Source: Ilyobacter polytropus DSM 2926 (GTDB lineage Bacteria; Fusobacteriota; Fusobacteriia; Fusobacteriales; Fusobacteriaceae). Taken from it: a stretch of DNA of 64,000 nt. Shown here piece after piece: positions 36,811 through 61,804 of the stretch. Positions within the stretch are counted from its first letter, which is position 1, and every line of letters starts with the position of its first letter. A program made the position numbers and the translations under genes. Where the stretch lies: the NCBI RefSeq assembly GCF_000165505.1, contig NC_014633.1, positions 868,001 through 932,000 on the forward strand. Reading direction: 5' to 3'. The notes under the pieces were generated by a model. That model was not told where the DNA came from. It made no database searches and saw only the letters and a list, made by a program, of their open reading frames with translations.

Positions 36811-37359
36811 TTAGCTTATCTCCTCTAGGTCCGCAAAAATTCCTCCTAGTATAAAATAACTTAAACTTATAAGGAAAATAGATATTACTATTCCTATGAG
36901 GCTCAGAGCCATTAAAACTGCTGTCAGTATGCAATTGGTGTATAGGGGAAGGTCTTTTAATTTTACCAGCAATTCCAAAGGGGCATCTAGCCTCTTTAAA
37001 GAAACTGCATAAATTACCAAGAGAATAAGATCTGCAACTCCAAAGGCTAGCTGAAACCAGAAAAGCTGCATAGGATAAGATTTTGCCAAAATCATTCCAC
37101 CATGACCTGCAATGGTGAGACATATCATCAGATTTATTATTTTATTCATTTTAAAACTGTGAAGTTTATTATTTAGCTCTTCCTTAAATCTCAGCATTAT
37201 AAAAGTGAAAATTAAAACAGAAATAAATGTCCCCATTGTTATGAACCAGAAAGGAGGTCTCTGAGATTCTTTGGTGATCTGAAGAGACTGGAGAACAAGG
37301 TTATACCCTCCATAAAAAAAGCATATTTGCTTCATCACGTTAAGAGATACCTCTTTCAT
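36811..37359 (-). CDS. Integral membrane protein, paralogue of the upstream gene
   Basis: 182 residues from the ATG at 37359, with AAAGGTG upstream. Hydropathy suggests four or five membrane helices: LVLQSLQ...FWFITMGTFISVLIFTFIML, INLMICLTIAGHGGMIL, LFWFQLAFGVADLILLVIYAV and ILTAVLMALSLIGIVISIFLISLSYFILG. A shared MRFKEELNNK(L)HS(F)KM loop and LDAPLELL loop match the neighbour at 37388. Not a family I can name. The two genes are 28 bp apart and co-directional, so probably a tandem duplication; they could form a hetero-oligomer. Confidence 0.75.
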   Translation of the reverse strand: MKEVSLNVMKQICFFYGGYNLVLQSLQITKESQRPPFWFITMGTFISVLIFTFIMLRFKEELNNKLHSFKMNKIINLMICLTIAGHGGMILAKSYPMQLFWFQLAFGVADLILLVIYAVSLKRLDAPLELLVKLKDLPLYTNCILTAVLMALSLIGIVISIFLISLSYFILGGIFADLEEIS

Positions 37360-37387
37360 AAAAATCACACCTTTATAATAGAGTTTT

Positions 37388-37939
37388 TTACTCCTTGGCC
37401 TCTTCTAGATAACTCATCTCCATAAAAATATTTCCAAGAATAAAATAACTGAGACTAATAAGGAATACTGCAAAAATAATTCCCACTATGGTAAATATCA
37501 TAAATACTGCAACTAGGATGCAGTTACTATAAAGTTTCAGGCTTTTTACTTTCTCAAGTTTCTCAAGGGGAGCATCCAAATTTTTCAAAAAAAGAGCATA
37601 AATAACGTCTAAAACTATACCCCCTATACCCAGGAAAAGCTGCATATAGACAACACTTTGGGGATAGGCTCTTCCCAATAGTGATGTGGCATATCCGGCA
37701 ATAGACAGATATATCATTATTATTATTACCCTGTCCATCTTTACACTATTCAGCCGTTTGTTCAATTCTTCTTTAAATCTCATCATTATAAATATAAATA
37801 CGACCACTGAGAAAAAAGAGATAAGTATAACTAACCACGTGGGAGTTTTTTCAGGAGATATGCTAAACTGAGTCACGAGGCTAAACATACCATAAAAATA
37901 ACATATAGCTTTCATTGCCTCTAAAGAAATCATATTCAT
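37388..37939 (-). CDS. Integral membrane protein, first of a tandem paralogous pair
   Basis: 183 residues, four or five predicted helices in the same order as the next gene. Shared features: an N-terminal ISLEAMKAICYFYGMFSLV, the loop MRFKEELNKRLNSVKM, NLDAPLEKLEKVKSLKLYSNCIL, and the final FAVFLISLSYFILGNIFMEM. No conserved charged residues inside the helices stand out, so a channel or transporter role is not indicated. ATG at 37939 has GGAGGGG upstream. The pair is divergent from the alarmone synthetase gene. Function unknown. Confidence 0.75.
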   Translation of the reverse strand: MNMISLEAMKAICYFYGMFSLVTQFSISPEKTPTWLVILISFFSVVVFIFIMMRFKEELNKRLNSVKMDRVIIIMIYLSIAGYATSLLGRAYPQSVVYMQLFLGIGGIVLDVIYALFLKNLDAPLEKLEKVKSLKLYSNCILVAVFMIFTIVGIIFAVFLISLSYFILGNIFMEMSYLEEAKE

Positions 37940-39773: not shown

Positions 39774-40364
39774 TTATCCCAGTATTTTTCTAGCCTCTAA
39801 AAGTCTTTGGGATGCTGTAAAAATAACCGCTGATAAAAATACCACCCCTATTGGATTTATATACTTTGTAAAAAGCATCATCATTGTAAAAAATATAAAC
39901 CCCTCAGTCCTTTCAGCCACTCCAGCCTGATAATAAAAGGACTTACTTCCCTTTTTTTCGGCCATCATTCCGGTGGTTAGGAAAACTGTCATGGAAAATA
40001 TTATACTGCAAGTCAAAATTAGCATTGTCATTCTAGTATTTGAAAACCTAAATGCCAGCCCTAATATAACGGATATTTCCACAAGTCTGTCAAAGGTTAT
40101 ATCCATAACTGTTCCAAAGGGGGTCGACCCATTTTCCCTGGCTATAGTTCCATCTACCGCATCGAGGAGACCTGACAACCACAAGACTGCTATGGCCATT
40201 AGCGGCATTTTAAAGTAGATAAAAATCCCCGTTGATATTCCCATAAAAAAAGCCATAACAGTAACTTGATTGGCAGTAAAATTATATCTCATAAAAAAAT
40301 CTGCTACTTTTTCAATAATTGGTTGTACATGTTTCCTAGCGTGTGTGTCTAGCATTTTTAGCAC
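39774..40364 (-). CDS. CDP-alcohol phosphatidyltransferase (YnjF-like)
   Basis: 196 residues with about five or six membrane helices. The family signature D(x2)DG(x2)AR(x8)G(x3)D(x3)D is complete: DAVDGTIARENGSTPFGTV then MDITFDR near residues 65-90. Such enzymes join a CDP-linked lipid to an alcohol such as glycerol phosphate or inositol phosphate. It follows the ABC ATPase gene by 6 bp, the same order as ynjD-ynjF in E. coli, where ynjE intervenes. Why a lipid-headgroup enzyme belongs in this cluster is not known; it may modify or anchor a product. Shares a bidirectional terminator downstream. Confidence 0.9.
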   Translation of the reverse strand: MLKMLDTHARKHVQPIIEKVADFFMRYNFTANQVTVMAFFMGISTGIFIYFKMPLMAIAVLWLSGLLDAVDGTIARENGSTPFGTVMDITFDRLVEISVILGLAFRFSNTRMTMLILTCSIIFSMTVFLTTGMMAEKKGSKSFYYQAGVAERTEGFIFFTMMMLFTKYINPIGVVFLSAVIFTASQRLLEARKILG

Positions 40365-40370
40365 CTCTGT

Positions 40371-41396
40371 TTATATCAATATAATATTATCTTTGTTATA
40401 CCTTATATAGAGTTCCATATGATTCTCTATAGGAAATTCAACACGGTTTTGAATCACCTCTATACACTCTCCGCCTATATCAATATCCAAATGATAAAAG
40501 CCACTTTTAAAGGAGCTGTCCTTTACTATGCCTTTGAAAACACCCTCATTACCATCTGTTTTTTCCTCCAATGTTACTCTTAGGTCCTCTGACTTCAAAG
40601 CCAGACAGACTTTTTCAGCCTCACTAAATTTTACAGGAAATTCTATGGTTTCATTATAAAAGATACCATCTTTGATCTTTCCAGTGAATATGTTATTTAT
40701 TCCTATAAATTTTGCCACAAAGGGTGAGGACGGTTTTTTATAGAGGTTCAATGGAGTATCAAACTGAGCAAGTTTTCCATTATCCAATATGGCAATTTTG
40801 TCCGATAGATAAAATGCTTCATTTCTGTCGTGAGTCACAAAGAGTACAGTACTTTTATGTTTTTTCTGAATTTTTTTTAGAAGTTTCTGTAGTTTTCCTC
40901 TGAGTCCTTCATCTAGTGCTGAGAAAGGTTCATCCATAAGAAGAAGTTTAGGTTCCATGACAAGTGCTCTTGCTATAGACACCCTCTGTTTCTGGCCTCC
41001 ACTGAGGTCATATGGATGTCTTTTTTCAAAACCACCTAGTCCAAGCTCTTTCAACACATCTCTAGCCTTTTCCAGTCTCTTCTTTTTACTTATTCCCATC
41101 ATTTTTAGGCCAAAGGCTACATTATCCTCTACATTTAGATTTGGAAGAAGCAGGGAATCTTGAAAAACCATTGACAGGCCTTTTTCTTTAGGGGATTTTC
41201 CTCTAGTTTTTTCACCCTGTATGTAAACTTCCCCATCATAGTCTTCTGTTAATCCAGAAATTATATTTAACAAAGTGGTCTTTCCACATCCAGATTCTCC
41301 CAGAAGGGTTACAAACTCACCTTTTTCAATTTTTAGATTAAAATTTTTCATTTTAAAATTATCATAATTTTTACCAATATCTTCCAAAATTACCAT
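40371..41396 (-). CDS. ABC transporter ATP-binding protein (YnjD-like)
   Basis: 341 residues: an ABC ATPase followed by a ~100-residue regulatory tail (TOBE-like), as in MOI/CUT1 importers. Walker A GESGCGKT near residue 34, Q-loop MVFQDSL, signature DLSGGQKQR, Walker B LLLMDEPFSALD, H-loop FVTHDRNEAF. It powers import by the two permeases encoded just upstream; its start overlaps the stop of the second permease by 7 bp, indicating translational coupling. Compared with E. coli ynjD, which is shorter, the regulatory tail is extra. Substrate unknown. Confidence 0.93.
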   Translation of the reverse strand: MVILEDIGKNYDNFKMKNFNLKIEKGEFVTLLGESGCGKTTLLNIISGLTEDYDGEVYIQGEKTRGKSPKEKGLSMVFQDSLLLPNLNVEDNVAFGLKMMGISKKKRLEKARDVLKELGLGGFEKRHPYDLSGGQKQRVSIARALVMEPKLLLMDEPFSALDEGLRGKLQKLLKKIQKKHKSTVLFVTHDRNEAFYLSDKIAILDNGKLAQFDTPLNLYKKPSSPFVAKFIGINNIFTGKIKDGIFYNETIEFPVKFSEAEKVCLALKSEDLRVTLEEKTDGNEGVFKGIVKDSSFKSGFYHLDIDIGGECIEVIQNRVEFPIENHMELYIRYNKDNIILI

Positions 41397-42151
41397 ACTA
41401 TGTCCCCTGTCATTTTTTTATTGTAGATCCTCTTTAATTTTCTCTCCAAAATAAAGAGTAAAGAAAAGTTTATAAATATATAGAGTACGCTGTATACAGC
41501 CCCCACCTTTATATTCCCTCCCGATATATACGGAAACATCAAAATAGGGATGGTCAAAACCTTCCCCCCTCCTATTATGAGGGTATTTAAGTATTGTGCA
41601 AAGGATACTATTATCACCAGGCTACCACCTGCGATTACAGAAGGCATAATATGAGGCAAAGTAATGTAAAAAAATCTCTGTATTCTGTTGGCCCCTAGCA
41701 TCTTACCAACTATTTCATAATTTTCATTGAGAGTCCCATACCCTATGGTTGTAGAATGAATGTAATACGGAAGGGTAAGTACCGTATGTATAAAAACAAC
41801 CCCTATAAGAGTTTCTGAAAGCCCTAGCCTGATAAAAGTAAAATAGATTCCCATACTGGTAACAAAAGATGGAATAATCAACGGGAGAAAAACCAGCCCC
41901 TGGATAATTTTTTTACCTTTGAAATTCTTTCTTGCCAGTATATTTGCAGCTGGAGTCCCAAGCATAATATTAAGAAAAAGGGTCAGCATAGCTGTTATAA
42001 CAGTGGTAATTGAAGCATCATAAGTTTTTTTGTCATTTATTATATAAAGCCATGAATCAAAGTTTAAACTTTCGTATATAAGAGCTCCAAAGGGAAGTAT
42101 AAAACATATCATTATAATAACCCCAATTAGTTTCATTCCTAATCTTTTCAT
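41390..42151 (-). CDS. ABC transporter permease, second subunit (YnjC-like half)
   Basis: 253 residues, six predicted helices: starts RLGMKLIGVIIMICFILPFGALIY, and the EAA cytoplasmic loop that contacts the ATPase is read as YEIVGKMLGANRIQRFFYITLPHIMPS. Belongs to the binding-protein-dependent permease superfamily of CUT1/MOI importers. In E. coli the equivalent YnjC is one long chain with two such halves; here the halves are two genes, stop and start adjoining at 42151/42152. Inner membrane; forms a heterodimer with the other half. Confidence 0.92.
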   Translation of the reverse strand: MKRLGMKLIGVIIMICFILPFGALIYESLNFDSWLYIINDKKTYDASITTVITAMLTLFLNIMLGTPAANILARKNFKGKKIIQGLVFLPLIIPSFVTSMGIYFTFIRLGLSETLIGVVFIHTVLTLPYYIHSTTIGYGTLNENYEIVGKMLGANRIQRFFYITLPHIMPSVIAGGSLVIIVSFAQYLNTLIIGGGKVLTIPILMFPYISGGNIKVGAVYSVLYIFINFSLLFILERKLKRIYNKKMTGDIVW

Positions 42152-43036
42152 CTAATCCCACGCCCTTTGATTTTTACCTACGGTGAATCTGTGAAGACAG
42201 TATACCAATACTCCCCCTGTCATACTAACCAATGAGATAAACATATTTATCACCATAAGGTTTGGCCTGTCAGCAAGATTCCCCTTAGAATACATATCAT
42301 AAGCCATTACTGCCAGAGCCTTTGGATAAGTCACACCAAGTATATAAGGCGTTTCAAATGCTGTAAACATATAAGCAATTATGATAAAAAAACTCATAAG
42401 AAGAGATGGGCCCATCAATGGAAGCGCCACTTCGAAAAAAAACCTTATTTTCCCCACACCAAAAATATAAGCTACCGAATCCCATTTTTTATTTATTCTC
42501 TGAAGAACCGGAAAAGACATCATAACTACAAAGGGACAGGTTTTCCATATATAAGTTAGCATTATCCCAATTCCTTTTTCGTCATTTGTTATGATAGGAA
42601 ACTCCCTGTAACTTTCTATTAATCCAGTAGCCACTAGGCAACGACTGATAAATCCATTCTGTAAAAGAAGGATCAGTATAAGGTAAGATGCCACTAGGTA
42701 AGGCACTAGTAAAGGGCTTTCTATTATTTTCTTTAAGTAATTACCTTTGAAATATCTGCCCTTTATATTCATATATAGAAAAAAAAGCAATCCTATAGAA
42801 ACCAATAGAGATAACATTGAAGAACAGATTGCCATTTTTGATGTAAATACCAGCGAATCCAAAAAGCTTTCACTGCCTAGAACCTCCATGTAATACTTTA
42901 GTGTAAACTCGGATTTCCCAATTATTTTATTTAGTCCGAAGCTCTGCAACAGCCCATAGATAAATCCATAAACAAAAAACAATGTTATGAATAAAATTAC
43001 AGGCATCAGATAGATATATCTTTTAATTCTTTCCAA
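42152..43036 (-). CDS. ABC transporter permease, first subunit (YnjC-like half)
   Basis: 294 residues with six predicted helices: YIYLMPVILFITLFFVYGFIYG, the middle SSMLSLLVSIGLLFFLYM, and an EAA-type loop WDSVAYIFGVGKIRFFFEVALPLMGPS. It overlaps the binding-protein gene by 14 bp and adjoins the second permease gene, so the transporter genes are translationally coupled. The long periplasmic loop between helices 1 and 2 (about 40 residues) is typical of CUT1/MOI import permeases. Pairs with the product of 41390. Confidence 0.92.
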   Translation of the reverse strand: MERIKRYIYLMPVILFITLFFVYGFIYGLLQSFGLNKIIGKSEFTLKYYMEVLGSESFLDSLVFTSKMAICSSMLSLLVSIGLLFFLYMNIKGRYFKGNYLKKIIESPLLVPYLVASYLILILLLQNGFISRCLVATGLIESYREFPIITNDEKGIGIMLTYIWKTCPFVVMMSFPVLQRINKKWDSVAYIFGVGKIRFFFEVALPLMGPSLLMSFFIIIAYMFTAFETPYILGVTYPKALAVMAYDMYSKGNLADRPNLMVINMFISLVSMTGGVLVYCLHRFTVGKNQRAWD

Positions 43037-44225
43037 TCTTCTCTAGCCATCCCTTTTCAATTATTTCAAGCTTTTCCGGAGAAAGCTCTCTCACTCTTTT
43101 TGTCGCTCTTTCCTCTAGCGTAGGAAGTGCATCTGACTGTCCTAGTATTTCAAAATTTTCTTTATCCTCTTGAGATAATTTACTCATATCTAGAATAGTA
43201 GAATCCCCCCAGTTTTTTGGATCCTGTTTTGCTAGCTGTGCATCTTCTGACAACAGATAATTTACTACATATAAGGCTCCTGCCTTATTTTTAGAGTTTT
43301 CAGGTATACTCAAATAATGATTATTAAACAGAGTTCCTTTTTCTATAAGAAAGCTTTTACTGTTCTCAGAAAATTCTCCAGATGTGATTTTATTGCTCGC
43401 TTTATTGACTGCATATCCCATAGTTACAGCAATCTCTTGGTTGGAGTATAGTATATCCAGTTTCCCTTCACTCTCAGGATAGGTTTCACCCTTTCTCCAT
43501 AAATAAGGTTCTAACTCTTCAAAGTAATTCCATACCTCTTCAAGAGCTACCTTAAATTTTTCATTACTCATACCTTGAGCCTTCTCTTCTCCTATTATAT
43601 CTATAACCATATTTCTCACAAAAGCGCTTCCTGTAAAATCAGGGATAGCCGGATATGTAAAAACTCCCGGGTTGTTTTTTACATATTCCTTGAGAGTCTC
43701 ATGATCTATGAAAGGTAGGGTTCCAGTAGAGCTGTCATATATAAAATTAAACTGTGTTTCTCCCCAGGGAGCCTCCAACCCGTTTATAGGTTCTCCAAAG
43801 TCACTTATCAGAGTTTCTTGTTTCACTTTTTCTATTATAGGAAGATTTTTCACAAAATTTCCCCATAAAACATTACTTTCTTTAAGAAGTTTAAAATTCT
43901 CTCCGTTTATCCATATAATATCCACACTTCCATTTTTTTTACCCGCCTGATTTTCAACGATGAGCTTATTTACAGTGTCTTTTATATCTGTGATTGGAAC
44001 TCTGTTAAGAATTATATTATTTTTTTCTTTTAGTGAATTTGCTACAAAAGTATCCATAAATTTATTTATCTCTGCAGATCCACCCCACATATATATGCTT
44101 ACCTCTGTTCCTTGAGAATTTTTTTCCACTTTTCCCCAGCTATAATCAAGCTTTGTAGCATCCTCTTCTTTTTTACCACAGGCCACTGCCATAAGGACTA
44201 AAATCAAAAATACAACTTTTTTCAT
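43023..44225 (-). CDS. Solute-binding lipoprotein of an ABC importer (YnjB-like)
   Basis: 400 residues from the ATG at 44225, chosen because GGGGGAG lies 4 bases upstream and the signal peptide starts there (MKKVVFLILVLMAVAC). The AVAC lipobox predicts a lipid-anchored Cys, so the protein sits in the periplasm on a lipid. The mature part is a family-1-type binding protein (EVSIYMWGGSAEINKFMDTF, DIIWINGENFKLLKESNVLWG, LEAPWGETQFNFIYDS) collinear with E. coli YnjB. Ligand not known; relatives bind small anions, sugars, metal complexes or polyamines. First gene of the transporter group. Confidence 0.9.
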   Translation of the reverse strand: MKKVVFLILVLMAVACGKKEEDATKLDYSWGKVEKNSQGTEVSIYMWGGSAEINKFMDTFVANSLKEKNNIILNRVPITDIKDTVNKLIVENQAGKKNGSVDIIWINGENFKLLKESNVLWGNFVKNLPIIEKVKQETLISDFGEPINGLEAPWGETQFNFIYDSSTGTLPFIDHETLKEYVKNNPGVFTYPAIPDFTGSAFVRNMVIDIIGEEKAQGMSNEKFKVALEEVWNYFEELEPYLWRKGETYPESEGKLDILYSNQEIAVTMGYAVNKASNKITSGEFSENSKSFLIEKGTLFNNHYLSIPENSKNKAGALYVVNYLLSEDAQLAKQDPKNWGDSTILDMSKLSQEDKENFEILGQSDALPTLEERATKRVRELSPEKLEIIEKGWLEKIGKN

Positions 44226-44506
44226 CGTGCTCCCCCATTCCAATTATTCATCAGTATCTAATTTACCATATTTTCTATTAGAAAATTCAAATTTTTAATA
44301 AAAAAATTAAATCTTCTAATATTTAATACATTATTAGACTTATATCTTGATTATATAATATACATTCTCCATTAGCAAATATGAGGTCTTTTCTTCCTGT
44401 ATCTAGTAATAATATATTCTTAAAAATTTAAAACAACCATTTAATTTATAAAAAAATTATTTAGGGAGTGATGGCGGTATATTATTTATCAATTTTTATC
44501 CAATGT

Positions 44507-44530
44507 AAAAGCCCTCCTTAGAGGGCTTTT
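44507..44530 (-). terminator. Terminator after the rhodanese-TVP38 fusion
   Basis: AAAAGCCCTC CTTA GAGGGCTTTT, perfect 10-bp stem, 3 bases past the stop at 44533. It separates the redox genes from the ABC genes; read-through is possible. Confidence 0.88.
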
Positions 44531-44532
44531 CA

Positions 44533-46080
44533 CTATACTGATTTTACAGAAGCTTTTGACTTTTTAGCTATTATTTTTGTTATTACTGTCAATATAAAGA
44601 ATATCAGAGATGCTGTAAGAGACATCTTTATAGCCGTAGCCTTATCTCCTGATGCCACTGCTCCTGCTAATAGAACAAAAACAGCGGTTCCTGGAAGGAT
44701 AAATAAGGTGGATAATAAAGAATACTGCATAAAGTTAATTGATGTAAGTCCGTAAACATAATTCTGTATCCCGAATGGGAAAACTGGAATCAGCCTTGTT
44801 GTAGCAAGGATAAACCAACCATCATTTTTGACCCCTTCATTTATCTTTTTAAAGACCTCTGAATTCCCAAATTTAGATTCAATAGGCTTTCTAGCAATAT
44901 ATCTAGCTATCAAAAATGCCATGGAAAGTCCTAGAGAAGCACCGATTGCAGTATAGATAACCCCTTTAACTCCTCCGAATACGAGCCCTCCCACTAAAGT
45001 TATAGGCAGTACAGATATACAGGTAATTGTTATCAGGGCATACATGAGTATGTATGCTGCAGGAGCCCATACCCCAAGACTTCCAATTAACATTTCCATT
45101 TTTTCTCTAGATTTCATATAGCTGAAAAAAACTTTGAAAAGACTTGTTTTTTCAAGCTCTACATTCCCATTCACTGCATTATAAGACCACTCAATCCAAG
45201 AACCATCATAATTCTTTACGTTGTCCCAGCCTAGTAACTGACTCAATACAAAGGTCATATGAGCCGATCTTACTCCCGACTGACAATAAGAGATGATCTG
45301 CTTATCTCTAGTGATTCCGTTTTCTGCAAGGATAGCCTCCATCTCTTCTTTTGACTTGAAGCTTTTATCCTCATTTACCATTTTATCCCAAGGAACATAG
45401 TATTCACTAGGAATTCTTCCTTTGGCGAAAGCTCCTTTATACTGAGCTAGCCCATCATGTTCAAAGTCTGTCCTTGTATCTATTACGACTGTATTATCAT
45501 CCCCTATACTTTTTTTCACATCCTCTATAGTGGCAAACTTAGAGGTGTCCTCAGACTTTGGAAACTCGTATTTTACAGATTCAGGTTTTGCAGAAGTCTC
45601 AGCTACCATCGGTAGCCCTGCATTTTTCCATCCATCTATTCCGCCATCTATAAGAACCATTTTTTCGTGGCCATACATATCAAGGATCCACCACAGTCTG
45701 GCTGCATCATACTCTGCTTTTGCACTTACTAGCATTATATATGTGTCTCCAGTTACTCCGTAACTTCCGAGAACTTCAGCCATTTTTTCCCTTGTAGCCC
45801 TCATACCACCGTATTCATACTCGCCTTTATCTGCTGAAAAAGATGGCCTCCAGATCTGGTACGAACCAGGTATATGACCCTTGTTATAGTCAGGCTCTTT
45901 TCTTACATCTAATACAACTATATTTTTATCCGCTGTCAGCATTTCATTTGCTTTTTCAGGGCTGATCAGTATTTTAGAATTTGAATATTGATCATAATTT
46001 TTTACTGCTGTAGGATTTTCATTAGCTACTCCAATCACAAATACCAATAAAAAGATTACAGAAACAAGTAGTTTTTTCAT
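44533..46080 (-). CDS. Exported double rhodanese fused to a TVP38/TMEM64 membrane domain
   Basis: 515 residues from the ATG at 46080 (GGAGGG upstream, signal peptide MKKLLVSVIFLLVFVIG). Two rhodanese domains fill residues ~20-310: the first has DVRKEPDYNKGHIPGS but no obvious active-site Cys, the second has DTRTDFEHDG and the active loop SYCQSGVRSAH with the sulfur-carrying Cys. After it comes a TVP38 (SNARE-associated) membrane domain, residues ~335-515, with ITLVGGLVFGGVKGVIYT and TRLIPVFPFGIQNYVYGLT. Rhodaneses move sulfane sulfur; TVP38 domains are putative transporters. The fusion puts the sulfur-transfer site on the outer face of the membrane domain. Lies 40 bp after the Hdr-like fusion gene. 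Confidence 0.9.
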   Translation of the reverse strand: MKKLLVSVIFLLVFVIGVANENPTAVKNYDQYSNSKILISPEKANEMLTADKNIVVLDVRKEPDYNKGHIPGSYQIWRPSFSADKGEYEYGGMRATREKMAEVLGSYGVTGDTYIMLVSAKAEYDAARLWWILDMYGHEKMVLIDGGIDGWKNAGLPMVAETSAKPESVKYEFPKSEDTSKFATIEDVKKSIGDDNTVVIDTRTDFEHDGLAQYKGAFAKGRIPSEYYVPWDKMVNEDKSFKSKEEMEAILAENGITRDKQIISYCQSGVRSAHMTFVLSQLLGWDNVKNYDGSWIEWSYNAVNGNVELEKTSLFKVFFSYMKSREKMEMLIGSLGVWAPAAYILMYALITITCISVLPITLVGGLVFGGVKGVIYTAIGASLGLSMAFLIARYIARKPIESKFGNSEVFKKINEGVKNDGWFILATTRLIPVFPFGIQNYVYGLTSINFMQYSLLSTLFILPGTAVFVLLAGAVASGDKATAIKMSLTASLIFFILTVITKIIAKKSKASVKSV

Positions 46081-46120
46081 TTGACCCTCCATTAAGTGCA
46101 GGAAATTACACCACACTATA

Positions 46121-48715
46121 CTATTTACTTTTTTTATCAAGTTCTTGTTTTGACTTATATCTATTCATCCATTGTTTTACAGGCCCCATGTTTCTATTAT
46201 TAACTTTTTCTTTAGTATAGGTTTCTCCAAATAACAGGTCTAATATATGAACTGAGTCTGCTCCCCCATTTTCCATAGATTCTCTACAGGCTGCACAATA
46301 AGAGATCATATGACCCGTTGTAGTTTCTTCAGCTCTTCTTTTCATTACCCTTCCTGCCAAGTCTGGATTTGCAGGAACTACCATCCCTCCGAAACCACAG
46401 CATCTGGTCTTTTCTCTGGAATTTTCAAGCTCTTCTACTTTATAACCCATATTATCTATTATCCATCTTATTCCATCATGAAGATCACTTCTCTCTCTAG
46501 CAGAACACGAATCATGGATGTTAAATACAATATCTGAACCCTTACCTATTCCATATTTTTCATCAGGAAGACCTATTTCAGGAAGCAGAGTCCACAGAGA
46601 AACCACATTCTGTTTCAGATATTCTGAAAACACTGCAAGACAAGACTGGCAGGCAACGATTACAGTATCTGCTCCCAATCTATCAATCTCAGCTTGAACC
46701 TCACCAAACCTCTCTTTAAATTTTTCCTTTTGACCTAGAGCTTTAGTTGGCTTCCCACAGCATTTCAAGACAGAACCTACCCCTCCATCGAGTTTATCTT
46801 GTAAGTGCCCCAATACATTCCCTACTGCTTCTGGATTATATGATGGCAAAGAACATCCAGGGAAAAATACATATTTTGTTTTCTCTCCTTCTGGAGCCTT
46901 ATTTGTTGTATTAAAGAATTTTGAGTATCCTAAATATTGATGTACCTCTATAGCACTATGACCCTTCATCGGAGATTTTCCTCCGTTGTCTTTTATATAT
47001 TCCGGTCTCATGCCCATAAAGGCTCCCTTCATATCAAAGTCCTTTGGACATTTGAGTGTACACTGGGAACATGCATTGCAAGAATAACTTATTTTTGGGT
47101 CCATTGCTGCATAACCCTTTTCAAGGTATTCCTCAAAAAGTGTCTTAGGACAATCTGTAAAGTCATTTAACATAATACACTCTTTCATACATAATTTACA
47201 TGTACACTGAAGACATCTATTGGCTTCTTTTTCTGCCTGCTCCTTGGTGAATGTAAATTCTGTCTCATCGAAAGATTTTATCCTTTCAGTTGGATCCAAC
47301 TCTTTAGCAATGACTCTTTCTACCTTTTCAGCAGCGTCCCATCCTTCTGACAAATACTCAGTTGGAAGCTCTAGTTTTGTCTTATATGCAGCTTCTTCCT
47401 CTGTTGTTCTGCCAGACATCAGGTCTTCACCTTTTAAGAATCTATCTGCAGATATGGCAGCACTCCTACCCTCAGCCATAGCTTCTATAACTATGAAAGC
47501 CGAGGCACAATCTCCAGCCACAAAAACATTCTCATTATTTACAGACTGCTTTGTAAGCTCATCAGTTTCAAAGGTCCCGTTTTTTCTTTTAGCGAGAGTT
47601 TCTTTCTTGTCAAATCCAGAATCTACACCCTGACCTATTGCAAAAACAACTGTATCAACATCTAGCATTTTTTTGTTATCTTCATTGCATGTAGGGTTAA
47701 ATCTCCCTTCATCATCAAAGATAGATATACACTCTTTGATCTCTAGACCTTTTACTCTACCATTATCATCAATTAAGATTTCATTTGTTCCCATCGCCAG
47801 ATTAAACTTTACTCCCTCTGCTATGGCACCCTTAACCTCATGCATAGAAGAGGTCATCTCTTCATAGCTAGGCTCTAGGCAAACAGAATAGACCTCTTCA
47901 ACTCCCTGAAGCCTGAGAGAAGACCTAGCACAGTCCATGGCAACATCTCCACCACCTATTACTGCAACTCTTTTCCCAACTCCTTCAGAGCCATTAGTAA
48001 GAGATATTTCCTTTAGATATTCTGCGGCATCATATACTCCTTGAGCGTCGTGATTTTTGAGACTACGGTCTATTCTTCCAGCCTGTCTTCCAACTGCTAT
48101 GATTACAGCATCATTTTCTTTCTTGAGAGTTTCAAAATCTATATCCTTACCTATTTCAGTATTTAGCTTGACACTTACTCCTAACATTTCAAGTATTGAG
48201 TATTCTTCATCAATTATGTTTCTAGGAAGCCTGTAAGCAGGGATCCCTACTCTCATCATACCTCCATATACCGGAAGTTTATCGTAAATAGTTACTTCAT
48301 GACCATTTTTAGAAAGGTCAATCGCTGCCTGTGCCCCTGCAGGTCCTGCCCCTATAACTGCAACTTTTTTTCCTGTGGCAGGTTTTTTATTCAGATCCCA
48401 GTTTACCGGGTTGTCAAAATTATCAGCAGCATACCTCTTTATATTTGCTACAGATATAGGTTTATCTTCATCCCCTCTTCTGCATCCCGCTTCACAAGGA
48501 TGGGCACAGACTCTACCAAGAGTTTTAGGTAAAAATAATTTTTCTCTTATTACCCCTATAGCACCTTCTCCGTCTCCTTCTCCTACAAGTCTCACATACT
48601 CTTTTATATCTGTATGCATAGGACAAGAAGATTGACATGCCGGATTGGAATCACCCATACAATTATCTACAATATCCTTCATATTTTCCATTACTTCTTT
48701 TGGCAATACACCCAT
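46121..48715 (-). CDS. GltD-like flavoprotein fused to HdrC/HdrB-like iron-sulfur modules
   Basis: 864 residues. Order: residues ~15-95 an Fe-S helical domain of the Fer4_20/GltD kind (CQSSCPMH, CAHPCEAGCRR); ~110-450 an FAD/NAD(P) oxidoreductase (VAVIGAGPAGAQAA, VAVIGGGDVAMDCARSS, VFVAGDCASA); ~520-600 two 4Fe-4S motifs (CLQCTCKLCMKEC, CNACSQCTLKCP) like HdrC; ~640-830 two CCG domains like HdrB (FFPGCSLPSYN with LKCCGKPTKALG, and HDSCSAR with TRCCGFGGM). Thus electrons from NAD(P)H can pass by FAD and clusters to a noncubane-type disulfide/persulfide site, or the reverse. Rhodanese genes on both sides suggest a sulfur substrate. No methanogen-like HdrA. Confidence 0.92.
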   Translation of the reverse strand: MGVLPKEVMENMKDIVDNCMGDSNPACQSSCPMHTDIKEYVRLVGEGDGEGAIGVIREKLFLPKTLGRVCAHPCEAGCRRGDEDKPISVANIKRYAADNFDNPVNWDLNKKPATGKKVAVIGAGPAGAQAAIDLSKNGHEVTIYDKLPVYGGMMRVGIPAYRLPRNIIDEEYSILEMLGVSVKLNTEIGKDIDFETLKKENDAVIIAVGRQAGRIDRSLKNHDAQGVYDAAEYLKEISLTNGSEGVGKRVAVIGGGDVAMDCARSSLRLQGVEEVYSVCLEPSYEEMTSSMHEVKGAIAEGVKFNLAMGTNEILIDDNGRVKGLEIKECISIFDDEGRFNPTCNEDNKKMLDVDTVVFAIGQGVDSGFDKKETLAKRKNGTFETDELTKQSVNNENVFVAGDCASAFIVIEAMAEGRSAAISADRFLKGEDLMSGRTTEEEAAYKTKLELPTEYLSEGWDAAEKVERVIAKELDPTERIKSFDETEFTFTKEQAEKEANRCLQCTCKLCMKECIMLNDFTDCPKTLFEEYLEKGYAAMDPKISYSCNACSQCTLKCPKDFDMKGAFMGMRPEYIKDNGGKSPMKGHSAIEVHQYLGYSKFFNTTNKAPEGEKTKYVFFPGCSLPSYNPEAVGNVLGHLQDKLDGGVGSVLKCCGKPTKALGQKEKFKERFGEVQAEIDRLGADTVIVACQSCLAVFSEYLKQNVVSLWTLLPEIGLPDEKYGIGKGSDIVFNIHDSCSARERSDLHDGIRWIIDNMGYKVEELENSREKTRCCGFGGMVVPANPDLAGRVMKRRAEETTTGHMISYCAACRESMENGGADSVHILDLLFGETYTKEKVNNRNMGPVKQWMNRYKSKQELDKKSK

Positions 48716-48742
48716 TTTTATCCTCCTAAATTACCTCGACTC

Positions 48743-49582
48743 TTACATCCCGTATTTTACAGGTGCTTTTACAGCCTCATACTCAAGCCAAGATCCATCG
48801 TAATTTTTTACATTGTCATATCCAAGAATTTCCACAAGAGCAAACATAGACTGAGTTGATCTTACTGCAGATTTACAGTGTGGCATTATAGCCTTTAGAT
48901 TTTTAGTTATCCCTGAATCTCTATAAAGCTTTTTTAGTTCAGCTTTAGATTTGTATTTTCCATCTTTTGTTATATTTTCTTTCCATTCAATAAATACGGA
49001 ATTTGGTATATGTCCCTTGATTCTCTCAAGTTTAGATCTCGCATCAAGCACAACCATTTGATTGTCTTCAATTGATGCTTTTACCTCTTCCAGAGTTGCA
49101 ACAAGCTTTGGATTTGCATCTTTCGCTACATATTTTGAAGTTTTTGAAGGCTTGCTAGGTGCCGCCATTGGAAGACCTGATTTTTCCCACGCCATTATTT
49201 GACCATCTAATATAAAGACATCTCCCTTATGTCCATAAAGGTTCAGTATCCACCATAATCTTGTGGCATTCATCATCCCATTATCGTCTACAATCACTAC
49301 TGTATCTTTATTTTCTATTCCCATTTTTGACATAAAACTTTCGAATTCTTCCTTTGGAAGAACCATTCCCTTGACTCCGTCTCTCTCCCTTGAAAATTCT
49401 TTATTCAATACCACCATGGCTCCTGGTATTGTTTTTTCAGGAACCTTATTCCATCTGTAGTCCAATACCACCACATCTTTTTTATCCTTGATCTTATTCA
49501 ATTTTTCCGGTGTGATTAGACCTCCCGCCACTGAAACTGCATAAAGTGTCACCATCATCAATAAAGCTACTAATTTCTTCAT
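48743..49582 (-). CDS. Exported double-domain rhodanese (thiosulfate sulfurtransferase, YnjE-like)
   Basis: 279 residues. Signal peptide MKKLVALLMMVTLYAVSVAG, so periplasmic. First rhodanese domain (residues ~25-140) has DYRWNKVPEKTIPGA and lacks the active Cys; the second (~160-275) has LDARSKLERIKGHIPNS and the active loop MPHCKSAVRSTQ. Thus one catalytic and one inactive domain, as in typical thiosulfate or mercaptopyruvate sulfurtransferases; E. coli YnjE has three. It would pass sulfane sulfur between a donor such as thiosulfate and a thiol acceptor in the periplasm. 27 bp upstream of the fusion oxidoreductase gene. Confidence 0.92.
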   Translation of the reverse strand: MKKLVALLMMVTLYAVSVAGGLITPEKLNKIKDKKDVVVLDYRWNKVPEKTIPGAMVVLNKEFSRERDGVKGMVLPKEEFESFMSKMGIENKDTVVIVDDNGMMNATRLWWILNLYGHKGDVFILDGQIMAWEKSGLPMAAPSKPSKTSKYVAKDANPKLVATLEEVKASIEDNQMVVLDARSKLERIKGHIPNSVFIEWKENITKDGKYKSKAELKKLYRDSGITKNLKAIMPHCKSAVRSTQSMFALVEILGYDNVKNYDGSWLEYEAVKAPVKYGM

Positions 49583-49828
49583 CTTTTCTCCCTCCTAGAT
49601 TTTATTTTTATGTTACTGTTAATAATTTAACTATATTTAAACTAAAATAATTTTTCTTGTTTAAAAAATTATTGATATTTCAAGATTTCAAACCTTTTTT
49701 AATATCTAATTTTATTAAAATTTAAATTTCTAAATATAAAAACCAATTTTTAAAAAGCTTATTCTTTGAATCTGAATAAATTAAATAAACATATTTTTTT
49801 CACAAATCCAAACATTCGTAATCTCAAA

Positions 49829-50185
49829 TCAGATATTTTTATTGTTTTCTTTTTGCCAAGCTTTGATCCCACCTGCCATGTCATAGACTTCGTTAAAACC
49901 CATTTTAGTCATCAAGGCAGCAGCAGCCTTACTTCTTCCCCCAATTGCACAAAATACAAGATACGGCAACTCTTTGTCTAGTTTTTCCAGCTCTTTTTTA
50001 AAATGATTTAGCTTTAGAAAATCAATTAAAATCGCACCATCAATATTACCTTCAAATTTGTTTTCTTTTTCGGTTCTTACGTCAATTAAAATCATATCCT
50101 TTTTCATTTCAATAAGATTTTTAGCCTCTTCAACTGAAACTATTTTGAACCCATCAGATTTTCTTTTGAAAAAATTTAACACCAT
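49829..50185 (-). CDS. Single-domain rhodanese (GlpE/PspE-like)
   Basis: 118 residues from the ATG at 50185, 8 bases after an AAAGGA site; an ATG at 50194 overlaps that site. One rhodanese domain: EEAKNLIEMKKDMILIDVRT, EGNIDGAILID, and the active loop VFCAIGGRSKAAAA with Cys near residue 79. No clear signal peptide (an N-terminal MVLNFFKRK is basic), so probably cytoplasmic, unlike the two exported rhodaneses in the cluster. 58 bases after the TVP38 gene. It may hand sulfur to cytoplasmic acceptors. Confidence 0.9.
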   Translation of the reverse strand: MVLNFFKRKSDGFKIVSVEEAKNLIEMKKDMILIDVRTEKENKFEGNIDGAILIDFLKLNHFKKELEKLDKELPYLVFCAIGGRSKAAAALMTKMGFNEVYDMAGGIKAWQKENNKNI

Positions 50186-50252
50186 AAACCACATCCTTTA
50201 ATTCTATTAAATAATAATTTTTTTCCCGTAAAAAAATTTATCTGTGTTACTA

Positions 50253-50927
50253 TTATTTTTCTTTAAACTCTTCATTTTTTTTCAAAAATTTTGGAATCAA
50301 AGATATAAATACAAAACAAAGGACAGCAATTCCAAGATAAGTAAGATTTTTAGTAGATAACCCTTCACCACTGGCTATAGCCCCTGCACTAAGTGTATAG
50401 ACAGCCGTACCAGGGATTATGAAAACTGTAGAAAGAATCCAATACTGCAAAAAACTGATACCCGTCAGTCCATAGACATAATTTTGAACATTAAAAGGAA
50501 AAATAGGGACCAATCTTGTGGTCATTAGAATTCTCCAACCTTGCTTTTTAACTCCCTGATCTATCCTTTGGAAAATCAGAGAATCCGAAAATTTTTTCTC
50601 TATAGATCTCCTGAAGAGATATCTAGCCACAAGAAATGCCGATGACAGTCCCAGACTAGCTCCTATAACTGTGTATATTGTCCCCATAATAGGTCCAAAT
50701 ACTATCCCTCCCAACACTGTAATGGGAAGTCCTGGCAAAAAGAAAATGCATGCTACTATGTAAAGTACCACATAAACTAAAGGCCCTAATACTCCAAAAC
50801 TATTTATCCAATTTTTTAACTCTTTTATATTTTCAAGACTGATATAACCGAAAACTCCGCCTTTATACAACAAGAAAATCACAATAAAGAAGGTTATCAA
50901 AATTACCATTCCTTTTTTATTTTTCAT
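50253..50927 (-). CDS. TVP38/TMEM64-family membrane protein (YdjX/YdjZ-like)
   Basis: 224 residues with about six hydrophobic segments. SNARE-associated/TVP38 signature: FFLPGLPITVLGGIVFGPI, IGASLGLSSAFLVARY, then the re-entrant TRLVPIFPFNVQNYVYGLT; the Arg and Pro of the last motif are strictly kept. E. coli has two such proteins, YdjX and YdjZ, in the ydj-ynj locus. The family is suspected to move ions or lipids or to transport oxyanions, but no substrate is established for this type. First gene in the minus-strand run of sulfur/redox genes; GGGGAG ribosome site before the ATG. Confidence 0.92.
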   Translation of the reverse strand: MKNKKGMVILITFFIVIFLLYKGGVFGYISLENIKELKNWINSFGVLGPLVYVVLYIVACIFFLPGLPITVLGGIVFGPIMGTIYTVIGASLGLSSAFLVARYLFRRSIEKKFSDSLIFQRIDQGVKKQGWRILMTTRLVPIFPFNVQNYVYGLTGISFLQYWILSTVFIIPGTAVYTLSAGAIASGEGLSTKNLTYLGIAVLCFVFISLIPKFLKKNEEFKEK

Positions 50928-51433: not shown

Positions 51434-51510
51434 TGGTGCCTAGAAGTGGATTCGAACCACCGACCGCACGGGTATGAACCGTGTGCTCTAGCCAACTGAG
51501 CTATCTAGGC
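51434..51510 (-). tRNA. tRNA-Met (CAT)
   Basis: 77 nt with CCA; identical to the copy at 17712-17788. Last gene of the nine-tRNA array. Confidence 0.93.
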
Positions 51511-51520
51511 TTATAAATAA

Positions 51521-51596
51521 TGGTGGAGCTAACCGGGATCGAACCGGTGACCTCTACGCTGCCAGCGTAGCGCTCTCCCAGCTGAGCTATAGCCCC
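51521..51596 (-). tRNA. tRNA-Ala (GGC)
   Basis: 76 nt with CCA. Acceptor GGGGCTA / TAGCTCC, anticodon loop CTGGCAG giving GGC. Confidence 0.95.
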
Positions 51597-51612
51597 AACT
51601 TTTAAAAATTAA

Positions 51613-51697
<85 letters not shown>

Positions 51698-51702
51698 ATT
51701 TT

Positions 51703-51777
51703 TGGTACCCCGTAGGAGAATTGAACTCCTGTCTCCAGAGTGAAAATCTGGTGTCCTTACCACTGGACGAACGGGGC
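51703..51777 (-). tRNA. tRNA-Glu (TTC), copy 2
   Basis: 75 nt with CCA. Acceptor GCCCCGT / ACGGGGT, anticodon loop TTTTCAC giving TTC. Same sequence as the copy at 51866. Confidence 0.95.
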
Positions 51778-51782
51778 TTATT

Positions 51783-51858
51783 TGGTGGTCGCAACAGGAC
51801 TTGAACCTGTGACCCCCTGCTTGTAAGGCAGGTGCTCTCCCAACTGAGCTATGCGACC
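51783..51858 (-). tRNA. tRNA-Val (TAC)
   Basis: 76 nt with CCA. Acceptor GGTCGCA / TGCGACC, anticodon loop CTTACAA giving TAC. Confidence 0.95.
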
Positions 51859-51865
51859 ATATTTT

Positions 51866-51940
51866 TGGTACCCCGTAGGAGAATTGAACTCCTGTCTCCA
51901 GAGTGAAAATCTGGTGTCCTTACCACTGGACGAACGGGGC
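51866..51940 (-). tRNA. tRNA-Glu (TTC), copy 1
   Basis: 75 nt with CCA; identical to the copy at 51703, with tRNA-Val between them. Confidence 0.95.
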
Positions 51941-51944
51941 TTAT

Positions 51945-52020
<76 letters not shown>

Positions 52021-52027
52021 ATAATAA

Positions 52028-52103
<76 letters not shown>

Positions 52104-52108
52104 ATAAG

Positions 52109-52184
52109 TGGTGCGTCACACAGGGATCGAACCTGTGACAACACGATTAAAAGTCGTGTGCTCTACCAACTGAGCTAGTGACGC
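52109..52184 (-). tRNA. tRNA-Lys (TTT)
   Basis: 76 nt with CCA. Acceptor GCGTCAC / GTGACGC, anticodon loop CTTTTAA giving TTT. First gene of the array. Confidence 0.95.
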
Positions 52185-60126: not shown

Positions 60127-60160
60127 CATTCCAATATATTAAAATAAAATTTATTTTTTT

Positions 60161-60223
60161 CTCATATAAGCTGCTAATAAGGTGCAGTGTATCTACGATT
60201 AACCTAAAATTAATCTCTATGAG
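60161..60223 (+). ncRNA. Purine (guanine-class) riboswitch aptamer
   Basis: 63 bases with the purine-riboswitch plan: P1 CTCATA / TATGAG, J1/2 TATAA, P2 CTGC / GCAG, J2/3 GTATCTAC matching the conserved UAUCUAC core, P3 GATTAA / TTAATC, and loops with AAGG and CCTAA that can kiss. The specificity base before the P1 closing strand is C (TCTATGAG), so guanine or hypoxanthine rather than adenine is the expected ligand. U51 is present, arguing against the 2'-deoxyguanosine variant. It precedes guaB, the first step to GMP, giving end-product feedback. Confidence 0.92.
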
Positions 60224-60247
60224 TGAAAGCGGTTCAGCAAATTTAAG

Positions 60248-60340: not shown

Positions 60341-61804
60341 ATGTTGAATGGAAAAATTATCAAAGAGGCTATAACTTTTGACGATGTTCTACTGGTACCA
60401 CAAAAATCTGATATCTTACCAAATGAAGTTTCGCTCAAAACAAAAATTACAAAAAATATAGAACTAAATGTTCCAATTTTAAGTGCTGCCATGGACACAG
60501 TAACAGAGGCAAAACTGGCTATAGCCTTAGCAAGACAGGGTGGATTGGGATTCATCCATAAAAATATGGCTATTGAGGAACAGGCTGCTGAGATAGATAA
60601 AGTTAAAAGAAATGAAAGTGGTATGATCACAGATCCTATAACTCTAAACAGGGAATCTACCCTTGCAGATGCTGATGGTATAATGGCAAAATACAGAATC
60701 TCTGGACTTCCTGTAGTAGAAAGCGACGGAACTTTAGTCGGTATAATCACAAATAGAGATCTGAAATACAGAAAAGATCTAGATGAAAAAGTAGAAACTA
60801 TAATGACAAAAGAAAATCTTATAACAGCTTCTGTAGGTACTACTCTTGAAGAAGCAAAAGAGATCCTTTTGGAAAACAGGATAGAAAAGCTTCCAATAGT
60901 TGATGAAAATTCCAAGCTTATGGGACTTATAACAATAAAAGATATTGATAATATAGAAGAATATCCAAATGCCTGCAAGGACTCTCGTGGAAGACTCAGA
61001 GTAGGAGGAGCTGTAGGTGTAGGAGCTGATACTTTAGAAAGAGTAGCTGCCCTTGTAAAATCAGGTGTAGATATAATTACAGTAGATTCTGCTCACGGAC
61101 ATTCTAATGGTGTAATTCAAACTGTAAAAAAAATCAGAGAAGCATTCCCTGATCTTGATATAATCGGTGGAAATATAGTAACTGCCGAAGCTGCCAAGGA
61201 TCTTGCTGATGCAGGAGCAACTGCAGTAAAAGTAGGAGTAGGACCAGGTTCTATATGTACTACCAGAGTGGTAGCTGGTGTAGGGGTTCCTCAGATATCT
61301 GCGGTAAACGATGTATATGAAGCTTGTAAAGAAAGAGGTATAGGAGTTATTGCCGATGGTGGAATAAAACTTTCTGGAGATGTTGTAAAAGCAATAGCTG
61401 CAGGTGCTGACTGTGTTATGATCGGAGGGCTTTTAGCCGGTACAGAAGAGGCTCCTGGAGAAGAGATCATTTTTGAAGGAAGAAGATTCAAGGTTTATGT
61501 GGGAATGGGTTCTCTAGCTGCAATGAAGAGAGGTTCTAGCGACAGATATTTCCAAAAAGAATCTGAGGCAAAAAAACTTGTTCCTGAAGGTATAGAGGGA
61601 AGGGTTGCTTATAAAGGTAAATTAGAAGATGTGATTTTCCAACTTACAGGTGGACTAAAGGCAGGTATGGGGTATTGTGGTACTGCCACTATAGCAGATC
61701 TTAAAAAAGATGGTAAGTTTGTAAAAATAACAGGTTCTGGACTAATCGAATCACATCCTCACGATATAAACATTACAAAAGAAGCTCCAAATTATCATAA
61801 ATAA
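60341..61804 (+). CDS. guaB: Inosine-5'-monophosphate dehydrogenase
   Basis: 487 residues. TIM barrel interrupted at residues ~95-205 by two CBS domains ([18 protein letters not shown]-like and [20 protein letters not shown]). Catalytic loop [20 protein letters not shown] with the active Cys, phosphate site [13 protein letters not shown] and flap region [21 protein letters not shown]. It oxidises IMP to XMP with NAD+, the committed step to guanine nucleotides. Expression is governed by the guanine riboswitch and terminator just upstream; AAGGAGG precedes the ATG. Single gene with a terminator. No unusual features. Confidence 0.97.

Follow-up and report, generated by a model that had tools for sequence, protein, structure and literature searches.

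The ydj-ynj-like locus of Ilyobacter polytropus: an anaerobic variant of the uncharacterised YnjBCD-YnjF-TVP38 system

No agreed function has so far been assigned to the ydj-ynj genes of Escherichia coli K-12 (ydjXYZ-ynjABCD, ynjE and ynjF; b1750-b1758). FNR directly activates ydjXYZ-ynjABCD and ynjE (PMC3688515), and ynjABCDEFI cluster with suf genes in genetic interactions (PMC3930520). A related locus resides in Ilyobacter polytropus DSM 2926, at positions 39774-50927 of a 64,000-nucleotide stretch of contig NC_014633.1 (hereafter the window). It comprises ten genes, all on the minus strand, encoding in transcription order a TVP38 protein, a one-domain rhodanese, a two-domain rhodanese, an 864-residue fusion resembling Hdr proteins, a double rhodanese fused to TVP38, a YnjB-type lipoprotein, two permeases, an ATPase and a CDP-alcohol phosphatidyltransferase. 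This content had been proposed from the sequence letters in an earlier reading (the original prediction), and is borne out by family searches of the window proteins, by cysteines of the HdrB type and by synteny within the genus. The locus is an anaerobic variant of a widespread, uncharacterised YnjBCD-YnjF-TVP38 system.

Homologues of YdjX, YnjB, YnjC, YnjD, YnjE and YnjF are all present in the window locus. Identity to the E. coli proteins is 34% for YnjB (E 7e-75) and YdjX, 35% for YnjD, and about 27% for YnjE and YnjF. An extracytoplasmic rhodanese is common to both loci, and in E. coli as in Klebsiella a rhodanese is kept beside ynjBCD. In contrast to E. coli, the window locus adds the Hdr-like fusion, extra rhodaneses and the TVP38-rhodanese fusion, and ynjF, which lies on the opposite strand in E. 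coli, is in line with the other genes. The kinship earlier drawn to ydjXYZ-ynjABCDEF holds for these homologues, but not for YdjY and YnjA. YdjY (NF040466) was found in none of 98 Fusobacteriota genomes, the E. coli control being positive, and YnjA, an AhpD-like protein, is matched by none of the ten window proteins; the locus is therefore a variant, and not the E. coli form. For Klebsiella, an incomplete gene table shows no YdjY entry between the homologues of ydjX and ydjZ. The notion that the fusion is an enlarged YdjY, the counterpart of the E. coli Fe-S component, had to be abandoned, the two proteins showing no similarity. The two YnjC-type permeases of the window are encoded by separate genes. 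This had been described as a split YnjC, but permeases encoded by two genes are the norm, and it is the fused YnjC that is the exception, occurring in Gammaproteobacteria and a few Bacilli.

Redox, lipid and transport proteins of the locus

The fusion begins with a Fer4_20 domain and a FAD/NAD(P) module of the GltD/NfnA type, and continues with an HdrC-like dicluster region and two HdrB-type CCG motifs (residues 621-692, C621, and 737-810, C737), whose cysteines are invariant across 7 relatives. A profile of the C-terminal half matches HdrC and HdrB in the PDB (5odc, chains B and C). The structure model of the Fe-S half matches EtfD and HdrB, the AlphaFold model of this C-terminal part being good mainly around the CCG region. 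Motifs, profiles and model matches agree with the original prediction in supporting an intact Hdr-like NAD(P)H/FAD/Fe-S enzyme, plausibly cytoplasmic, with a predicted disulfide or persulfide reductase activity. The HdrC dicluster and the two non-cubane-cluster CCG motifs are shared with HdrB/HdrC and with HdrD-like proteins (EtfD, TfrB, LdhH). Unlike HdrB/HdrC, the fusion carries the additional GltD/NfnA-type FAD-NAD(P) module, and the cluster includes neither HdrA nor a partner hydrogenase. The overall architecture is that of the NF045663 family (pyridine nucleotide-disulfide oxidoreductase/dicluster-binding protein, 'diclust_near_Sec'), but the fusion scores 501 bits, under the curated cut-off of 530, and no selenoprotein gene was seen in the window cluster. 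In other genomes (loci L114, L127, L128, L129, L224 and L226) a paralogue of the fusion adjoins a DMT-like membrane protein of 305-338 aa, whose L226 copy has no NCBIfam match; the two are possibly a second transporter-reductase pair.

All three rhodanese genes encode one active-site cysteine each. Signal peptides are recognisable in the two-domain rhodanese and in the TVP38 fusion, as well as in their Fusobacterial relatives, and are absent from the small rhodanese. On these sequence features, the two double rhodaneses are predicted to be secreted or membrane-tethered and the third to be cytoplasmic, which supports the placement of rhodaneses on both sides of the membrane already envisaged. 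The TVP38 part of the fusion is 49% identical to the first TVP38 protein from residue 31 on, and lacks the first transmembrane helix. This helix has been exchanged for a signal peptide and a rhodanese, and the latter would therefore lie outside. DedA proteins of COG0398 (E. coli YdjZ type) are putative phospholipid flippases, are fused most often to Lpd/MerA-type domains, and have been tied to aerobic metabolism in a published survey (PMC10127716). In such fusions, as in the window, a VTT protein is joined to a thiol/disulfide redox enzyme. In the window, however, TVP38 is fused to a secreted double rhodanese, with an Fe-S flavoprotein of the anaerobic type as the reductase; such an anaerobic locus runs counter to the view that DedA proteins of COG0398 accompany aerobic metabolism. 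No paper on TVP38 together with rhodanese was found.

The CDP-alcohol transferase has an intact D..DG..AR...G...D...D motif, and its nearest solved relatives are PI/PIP synthases; no paper on YnjF was found. The binding protein belongs to the YnjB family, scoring 430 bits against NF008633 (cut-off 203). Its AlphaFold model (mean predicted local confidence, pLDDT, 92.5) has fold matches to many binders of organic solutes (sugar, polyamine, phosphonate, glycerophosphocholine), and to iron binders. Matches to solved structures by sequence are weak and partial, and many fold-class matches are equivalent, so no ligand is called. The modelled fold leans against a simple oxyanion.

Conservation, loss and distribution

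Relatives of the YnjB-type protein and of the TVP38/rhodanese proteins occur in an identical set of 29 of the 98 Fusobacteriota genomes, usually adjacent, and their presence and absence agree within mixed genera (g3, g5, g8, g14). In 24 of these 29 genomes a match to the fusion exceeds the threshold, be it to the entire protein or to its C-terminal half. Within 8 kb of 30 Fusobacteriota binding-protein genes, many of which sit at contig ends, we found a CDP-alcohol transferase at 24, TVP38 at 23, the C-terminal Fe-S part of the fusion at 21 and a rhodanese at 14. The order Fe-S protein-(rhodanese)-TVP38-binding protein-ABC (ATP-binding cassette) genes-CDP-alcohol transferase recurs across Fusobacteriaceae, TVP38 and ynjB being spaced by 8-110 bp in most genera. 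Synteny of the block extends to another genome of the genus, with 89.5% identity across 11.6 kb. Because of this synteny and of the recurring gene order, the grouping is more than chance.

Losses have occurred as well. In G043, a genome of the same genus, DNA matching window positions 47022-50269 is gone, and with it the genes for the one- and two-domain rhodaneses and some two-thirds of the fusion; a second deletion has removed DNA matching positions ~44433-46074 (TVP38-rhodanese). The first TVP38, the C-terminal fusion piece and the whole ABC-CDP group are kept; the piece of the fusion left (L092:9200-11400) is an open frame of 285 aa. In G048 (L105) the two gene groups lie on opposite strands, and in G047 a YedE-type gene stands alongside the cluster.

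Outside Fusobacteriota, one scan with the YnjB alignment yielded 80 loci. Within 8 kb of the 35 loci found in Bacilli, TVP38 is present at 27, a CDP-alcohol transferase at 28, an Lpd/MerA-like flavoenzyme at 22 and a TIGR03169 flavoenzyme at 18; a rhodanese and the Hdr-like fusion are near one locus each. The binding protein occurs in 9 of 274 Gammaproteobacteria, with contiguous binding protein, permease, ATPase and CDP-alcohol transferase genes at five loci (L238, L240-L243). Anaerobacillus (L197) has a nearly full set that includes the fusion; Halanaerobacter (L151) has one too, except that its CDP gene is missing. The fusion is rare, being found in 3 of 291 genomes of a class-wide sample around Tepidibacter. 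The ABC group, earlier regarded as one system with the rhodanese group, is partly independent of it, given the loss in G043 and a stem-loop between the two groups (Table 1): ABC, CDP-alcohol transferase and TVP38 genes are conserved without the rhodanese/Fe-S part in Bacilli and Gammaproteobacteria. Across phyla, the core is made of the importer, the CDP-alcohol transferase, TVP38 and a thiol-redox flavoenzyme, to which rhodaneses and the Hdr-like fusion come as accessory parts in anaerobes.

Thiol-redox partners of YnjBCD loci include Lpd/MerA-like and TIGR03169 flavoenzymes, AhpD-like proteins, MsrAB, rhodaneses, the Hdr-like fusion and YeeE/YedE. A TVP38-flavoenzyme fusion of the Lpd/MerA type is encoded beside YnjBCD in L166, and probably a TVP38-flavoenzyme fusion in L238 also. 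Lipid-related neighbours recur too: a lysophospholipid acyltransferase adjoins ynjB in Deinococcus, Pqi/MlaD genes and a CDP-alcohol transferase are near the YnjB locus of Roseivivax, and a patatin and an LPG-synthase-TM protein are found at YnjBCD loci L166 and L154, respectively. Flavoproteins of the TIGR03169 'Nterm_to_SelD' type, without SelD fusion, recur beside YnjBCD (L136-L141, L172, L173, L188, L238). In the Bacillus loci L154, L155, L159 and L163, the genes upstream include those for an LPG-synthase-TM type protein, a PrdB/GrdB-like protein of 169 aa and a VTT protein of 390 aa, which has a long extension at its N terminus; a YdjY-domain protein is found in at least L154.

Candidate functions and alternatives

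The locus may tentatively be regarded as a membrane-lipid and thiol/persulfide redox module, in which an organic head group would enter through the importer, and the Hdr-like enzyme would use NAD(P)H to reduce a disulfide or persulfide. From the parts and their association, read directly in the sequence, we infer four steps. YnjBCD would import a polar organic compound (an alcohol, polyol, amino-alcohol or nucleoside-like compound) and not a bare sulfur oxyanion. The CDP-alcohol transferase would attach the compound, or a derivative, to a phosphatidyl group. The TVP38 protein would shift the resulting lipid, or another, across leaflets, and a thiol/disulfide or persulfide redox step would finally act on the lipid system. 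The last step may be carried out in aerobes by the lipoamide dehydrogenase/MerA-like flavoenzyme; here, sulfane sulfur would be loaded by rhodaneses on the outer side, and on the inner side NAD(P)H-dependent reduction of a disulfide or persulfide would fall to the Hdr-like enzyme. The redox arm would have been swapped between lineages, Hdr-like enzyme and rhodaneses representing the anaerobic form. Setting the cross-phylum core apart from the swappable redox parts turns an orphan E. coli operon into a testable lipid-plus-thiol hypothesis, to which the Fusobacteriota variant contributes a redox partner of the anaerobic type and a physical fusion of TVP38 with rhodanese.

Several points weigh against such a module. 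The coupling of lipid and sulfur is drawn from gene association only, and phospholipid flipping by TVP38 proteins of this type is itself a proposal. The fold matches of the binding protein are generic and single out no ligand. Among distant YnjB relatives (22 loci in Desulfobacterota, Alphaproteobacteria and Chloroflexi/Actinobacteria/Bacteroidota), TVP38 is near one and the CDP-alcohol transferase near none, so the importer can serve other purposes. A more specific version, which we regard as quite improbable, is a lipid-borne thiol or sulfane shuttle: YnjBCD would import a hydroxy-thiol-like head group, YnjF would join it to CDP-diacylglycerol, TVP38 would flip the lipid, the TVP38-fused secreted rhodanese would add sulfane sulfur to it on the outside, and its reduction inside would be the task of the Hdr-like enzyme (elsewhere of the TVP38-fused Lpd/MerA-like enzyme). 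Such a shuttle would account for the fusion of both a secreted rhodanese and a disulfide reductase to the same flippase-type protein.

The mechanism first suggested was the import of a sulfur or selenium compound by the ABC transporter, with rhodaneses passing on sulfane sulfur and the Hdr-like enzyme reducing it with NAD(P)H; a system of this kind could feed sulfide or selenide to Fe-S clusters, molybdenum cofactor or tRNA thiolation. A connection to sulfur did emerge. Active cysteines are intact in rhodaneses on both membrane sides, two YeeE/YedE-type sulfur transporter genes lie directly upstream of the fusion in Halanaerobacter, a YedE-type gene accompanies the G047 cluster, and in L129 both a YedE-type gene and one for a CoA-disulfide reductase-rhodanese lie close to the fusion paralogue; the suf interactions of ynjABCDEFI point the same way. 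Yet, nothing supports the importer as a carrier of such compounds. Most YnjBCD loci lack both rhodanese and fusion, and the sister species G043 has deleted these but retains TVP38, the CDP transferase and the importer. The binding protein, too, is similar in fold to proteins that bind organic solutes. In addition, the lipid side (CDP-alcohol transferase and VTT protein of the flippase type) was left out of the mechanism, which gives the lipid enzyme no role. We thus hold this explanation to be rather doubtful, the earlier interpretation being, overall, partly supported.

A system specific for selenium was considered and discarded. SelD is encoded in 27 of the 29 YnjB-positive Fusobacteriota genomes, but also in 30 of the 69 without YnjB, and it is missing from G041, which is 99% complete and possesses the core. 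SelD genes of most Fusobacteriota carry an in-frame TGA, likely a selenocysteine codon; none is found in the SelD gene of the I. polytropus genome (G000:C2:403710-404612), nor in those of G042 and G043.

It is about as doubtful that two unrelated modules merely adjoin, one an operon for import and synthesis of a phospholipid head group (YnjBCD-YnjF-TVP38), the other an operon for detoxification or assimilation of sulfane sulfur (rhodaneses, TVP38-rhodanese, Hdr-like fusion). The independent loss in G043, the opposite strands in G048, the separate transcription units of the window, divided by the stem-loop and a 289-bp gap, and the occurrence of the fusion family beside the unrelated DMT-like transporter all fit this explanation. 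However, the spacing of 8-110 bp and the constant gene order in most Fusobacteriaceae do not; the same order is found again in Anaerobacillus and Halanaerobacter, and the rhodanese beside ynjBCD in E. coli and Klebsiella argues for a link.

Handling of metalloids or organoarsenicals, in which importer and glycosyltransferase/kinase partners would process arsenosugar- or nucleoside-like compounds and thiol enzymes would reduce metalloid-thiol bonds, seems very unlikely. TIGR04283 and TIGR04282 ('arsenosugar biosynthesis glycosyltransferase') are above cut-offs in L135 and L227; with an APH-type kinase they follow the ATPase in L134, L135 and L151, and stand beside the Fe-S-rhodanese-TVP38 genes in L227, and at several loci a nucleoside hydrolase adjoins ynjB. 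The window cluster and most YnjBCD loci have no such partners, the arsenosugar family names are based on context and not on tests, and neither ArsM nor ArsS was noticed within 10 kb in the loci read, no search having been aimed at them. No paper on arsenosugar genes with TVP38 was found. The trio recurs in genomes that are not related to each other (L134, L135, L151 and L227).

YnjBCD is named a thiamine importer in some databases, a function we find hardly credible: permease and ATPase have weak NCBIfam similarity to ThiP/ThiQ and a thiamine-binding protein is among the fold matches, but phosphonate, polyamine and tungstate families outscore ThiP/ThiQ, and no thiamine pyrophosphate riboswitch was found in 27 sequences scanned, an absence that does not rule out thiamine import. 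No S-adenosylmethionine riboswitch was found in the same sequences.

Gene layout and neighbouring features

The window is part of a contig of 961,624 bp in a genome of 3.13 Mb, whose relatives include Cetobacterium (Fusobacteriaceae). No match to the window turned up in a plasmid collection, from which its replicon may have been omitted deliberately. The features of the locus are given in Table 1. The genes appear to be divided among three transcription units. A gap of 246 bp separates the small rhodanese from the 279-aa rhodanese, and the gap between TVP38-rhodanese and binding protein holds the strong stem-loop. The latter is not listed by a consensus terminator scan, probably because its T-run is short, and an automatic promoter scan of the window performed no better than on shuffled sequences. 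The listed TTG start of the TVP38-rhodanese gene may be revised, as the ATG at 46080 yields a clean signal peptide; the gene probably spans 44533-46080.

Table 1. Features of the ydj-ynj-like locus, in transcription order
Feature	Position	Strand	Evidence
TVP38/VTT-domain membrane protein, YdjX-like, 224 aa	50253..50927	-	PF09335 E 2e-26; 34% to E. coli YdjX
Single-domain rhodanese, 121 aa, without signal peptide, active-site Cys82 (CAIGGRS), predicted cytoplasmic	49829..50194	-	PF00581 E 4e-18
Two-domain rhodanese, 279 aa, with signal peptide; one active Cys236 (CKSAVRS), in domain 2	48743..49582	-	PF00581; N-terminal hydrophobic segment, Cys position
864-aa fusion: Fer4_20 + FAD/NAD(P) GltD-like module, HdrC-like dicluster, HdrB-like two-CCG module	46121..48715	-	Family matches; CCG motifs; PDB profile matches
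Signal peptide + double rhodanese (active Cys286) + TVP38 fusion, 535 aa (from TTG at 46140)	44533..46140	-	PF00581 x2 + PF09335
Stem-loop between redox group and ABC group, possible terminator	44495..44540	-	-19.5 kcal/mol, z -5.15
YnjB-type substrate-binding lipoprotein, 406 aa; alternative ATG at 44225	43023..44243	-	NF008633 430 bits
ABC permease A, 294 aa; weak match to first half of YnjC	42152..43036	-	PF00528
ABC permease B, 253 aa; match to second half of YnjC	41390..42151	-	PF00528
ABC ATPase, 341 aa, YnjD-like, C-terminal regulatory extension	40371..41396	-	PF00005; 35% to YnjD
CDP-alcohol phosphatidyltransferase, 196 aa, YnjF-like	39774..40364	-	PF01066 E 6e-13; intact motif

Other features of the window may be mentioned. 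Two neighbouring, similar-looking membrane proteins of 183-185 aa, without Pfam match, are encoded at 36811-37939. Directly upstream of the locus, nine tRNA genes form a single cluster (51434-52184) on the 961-kb replicon. A purine riboswitch (60142-60239) precedes a gene at 60341-61804, the product of which resembles IMP dehydrogenase.

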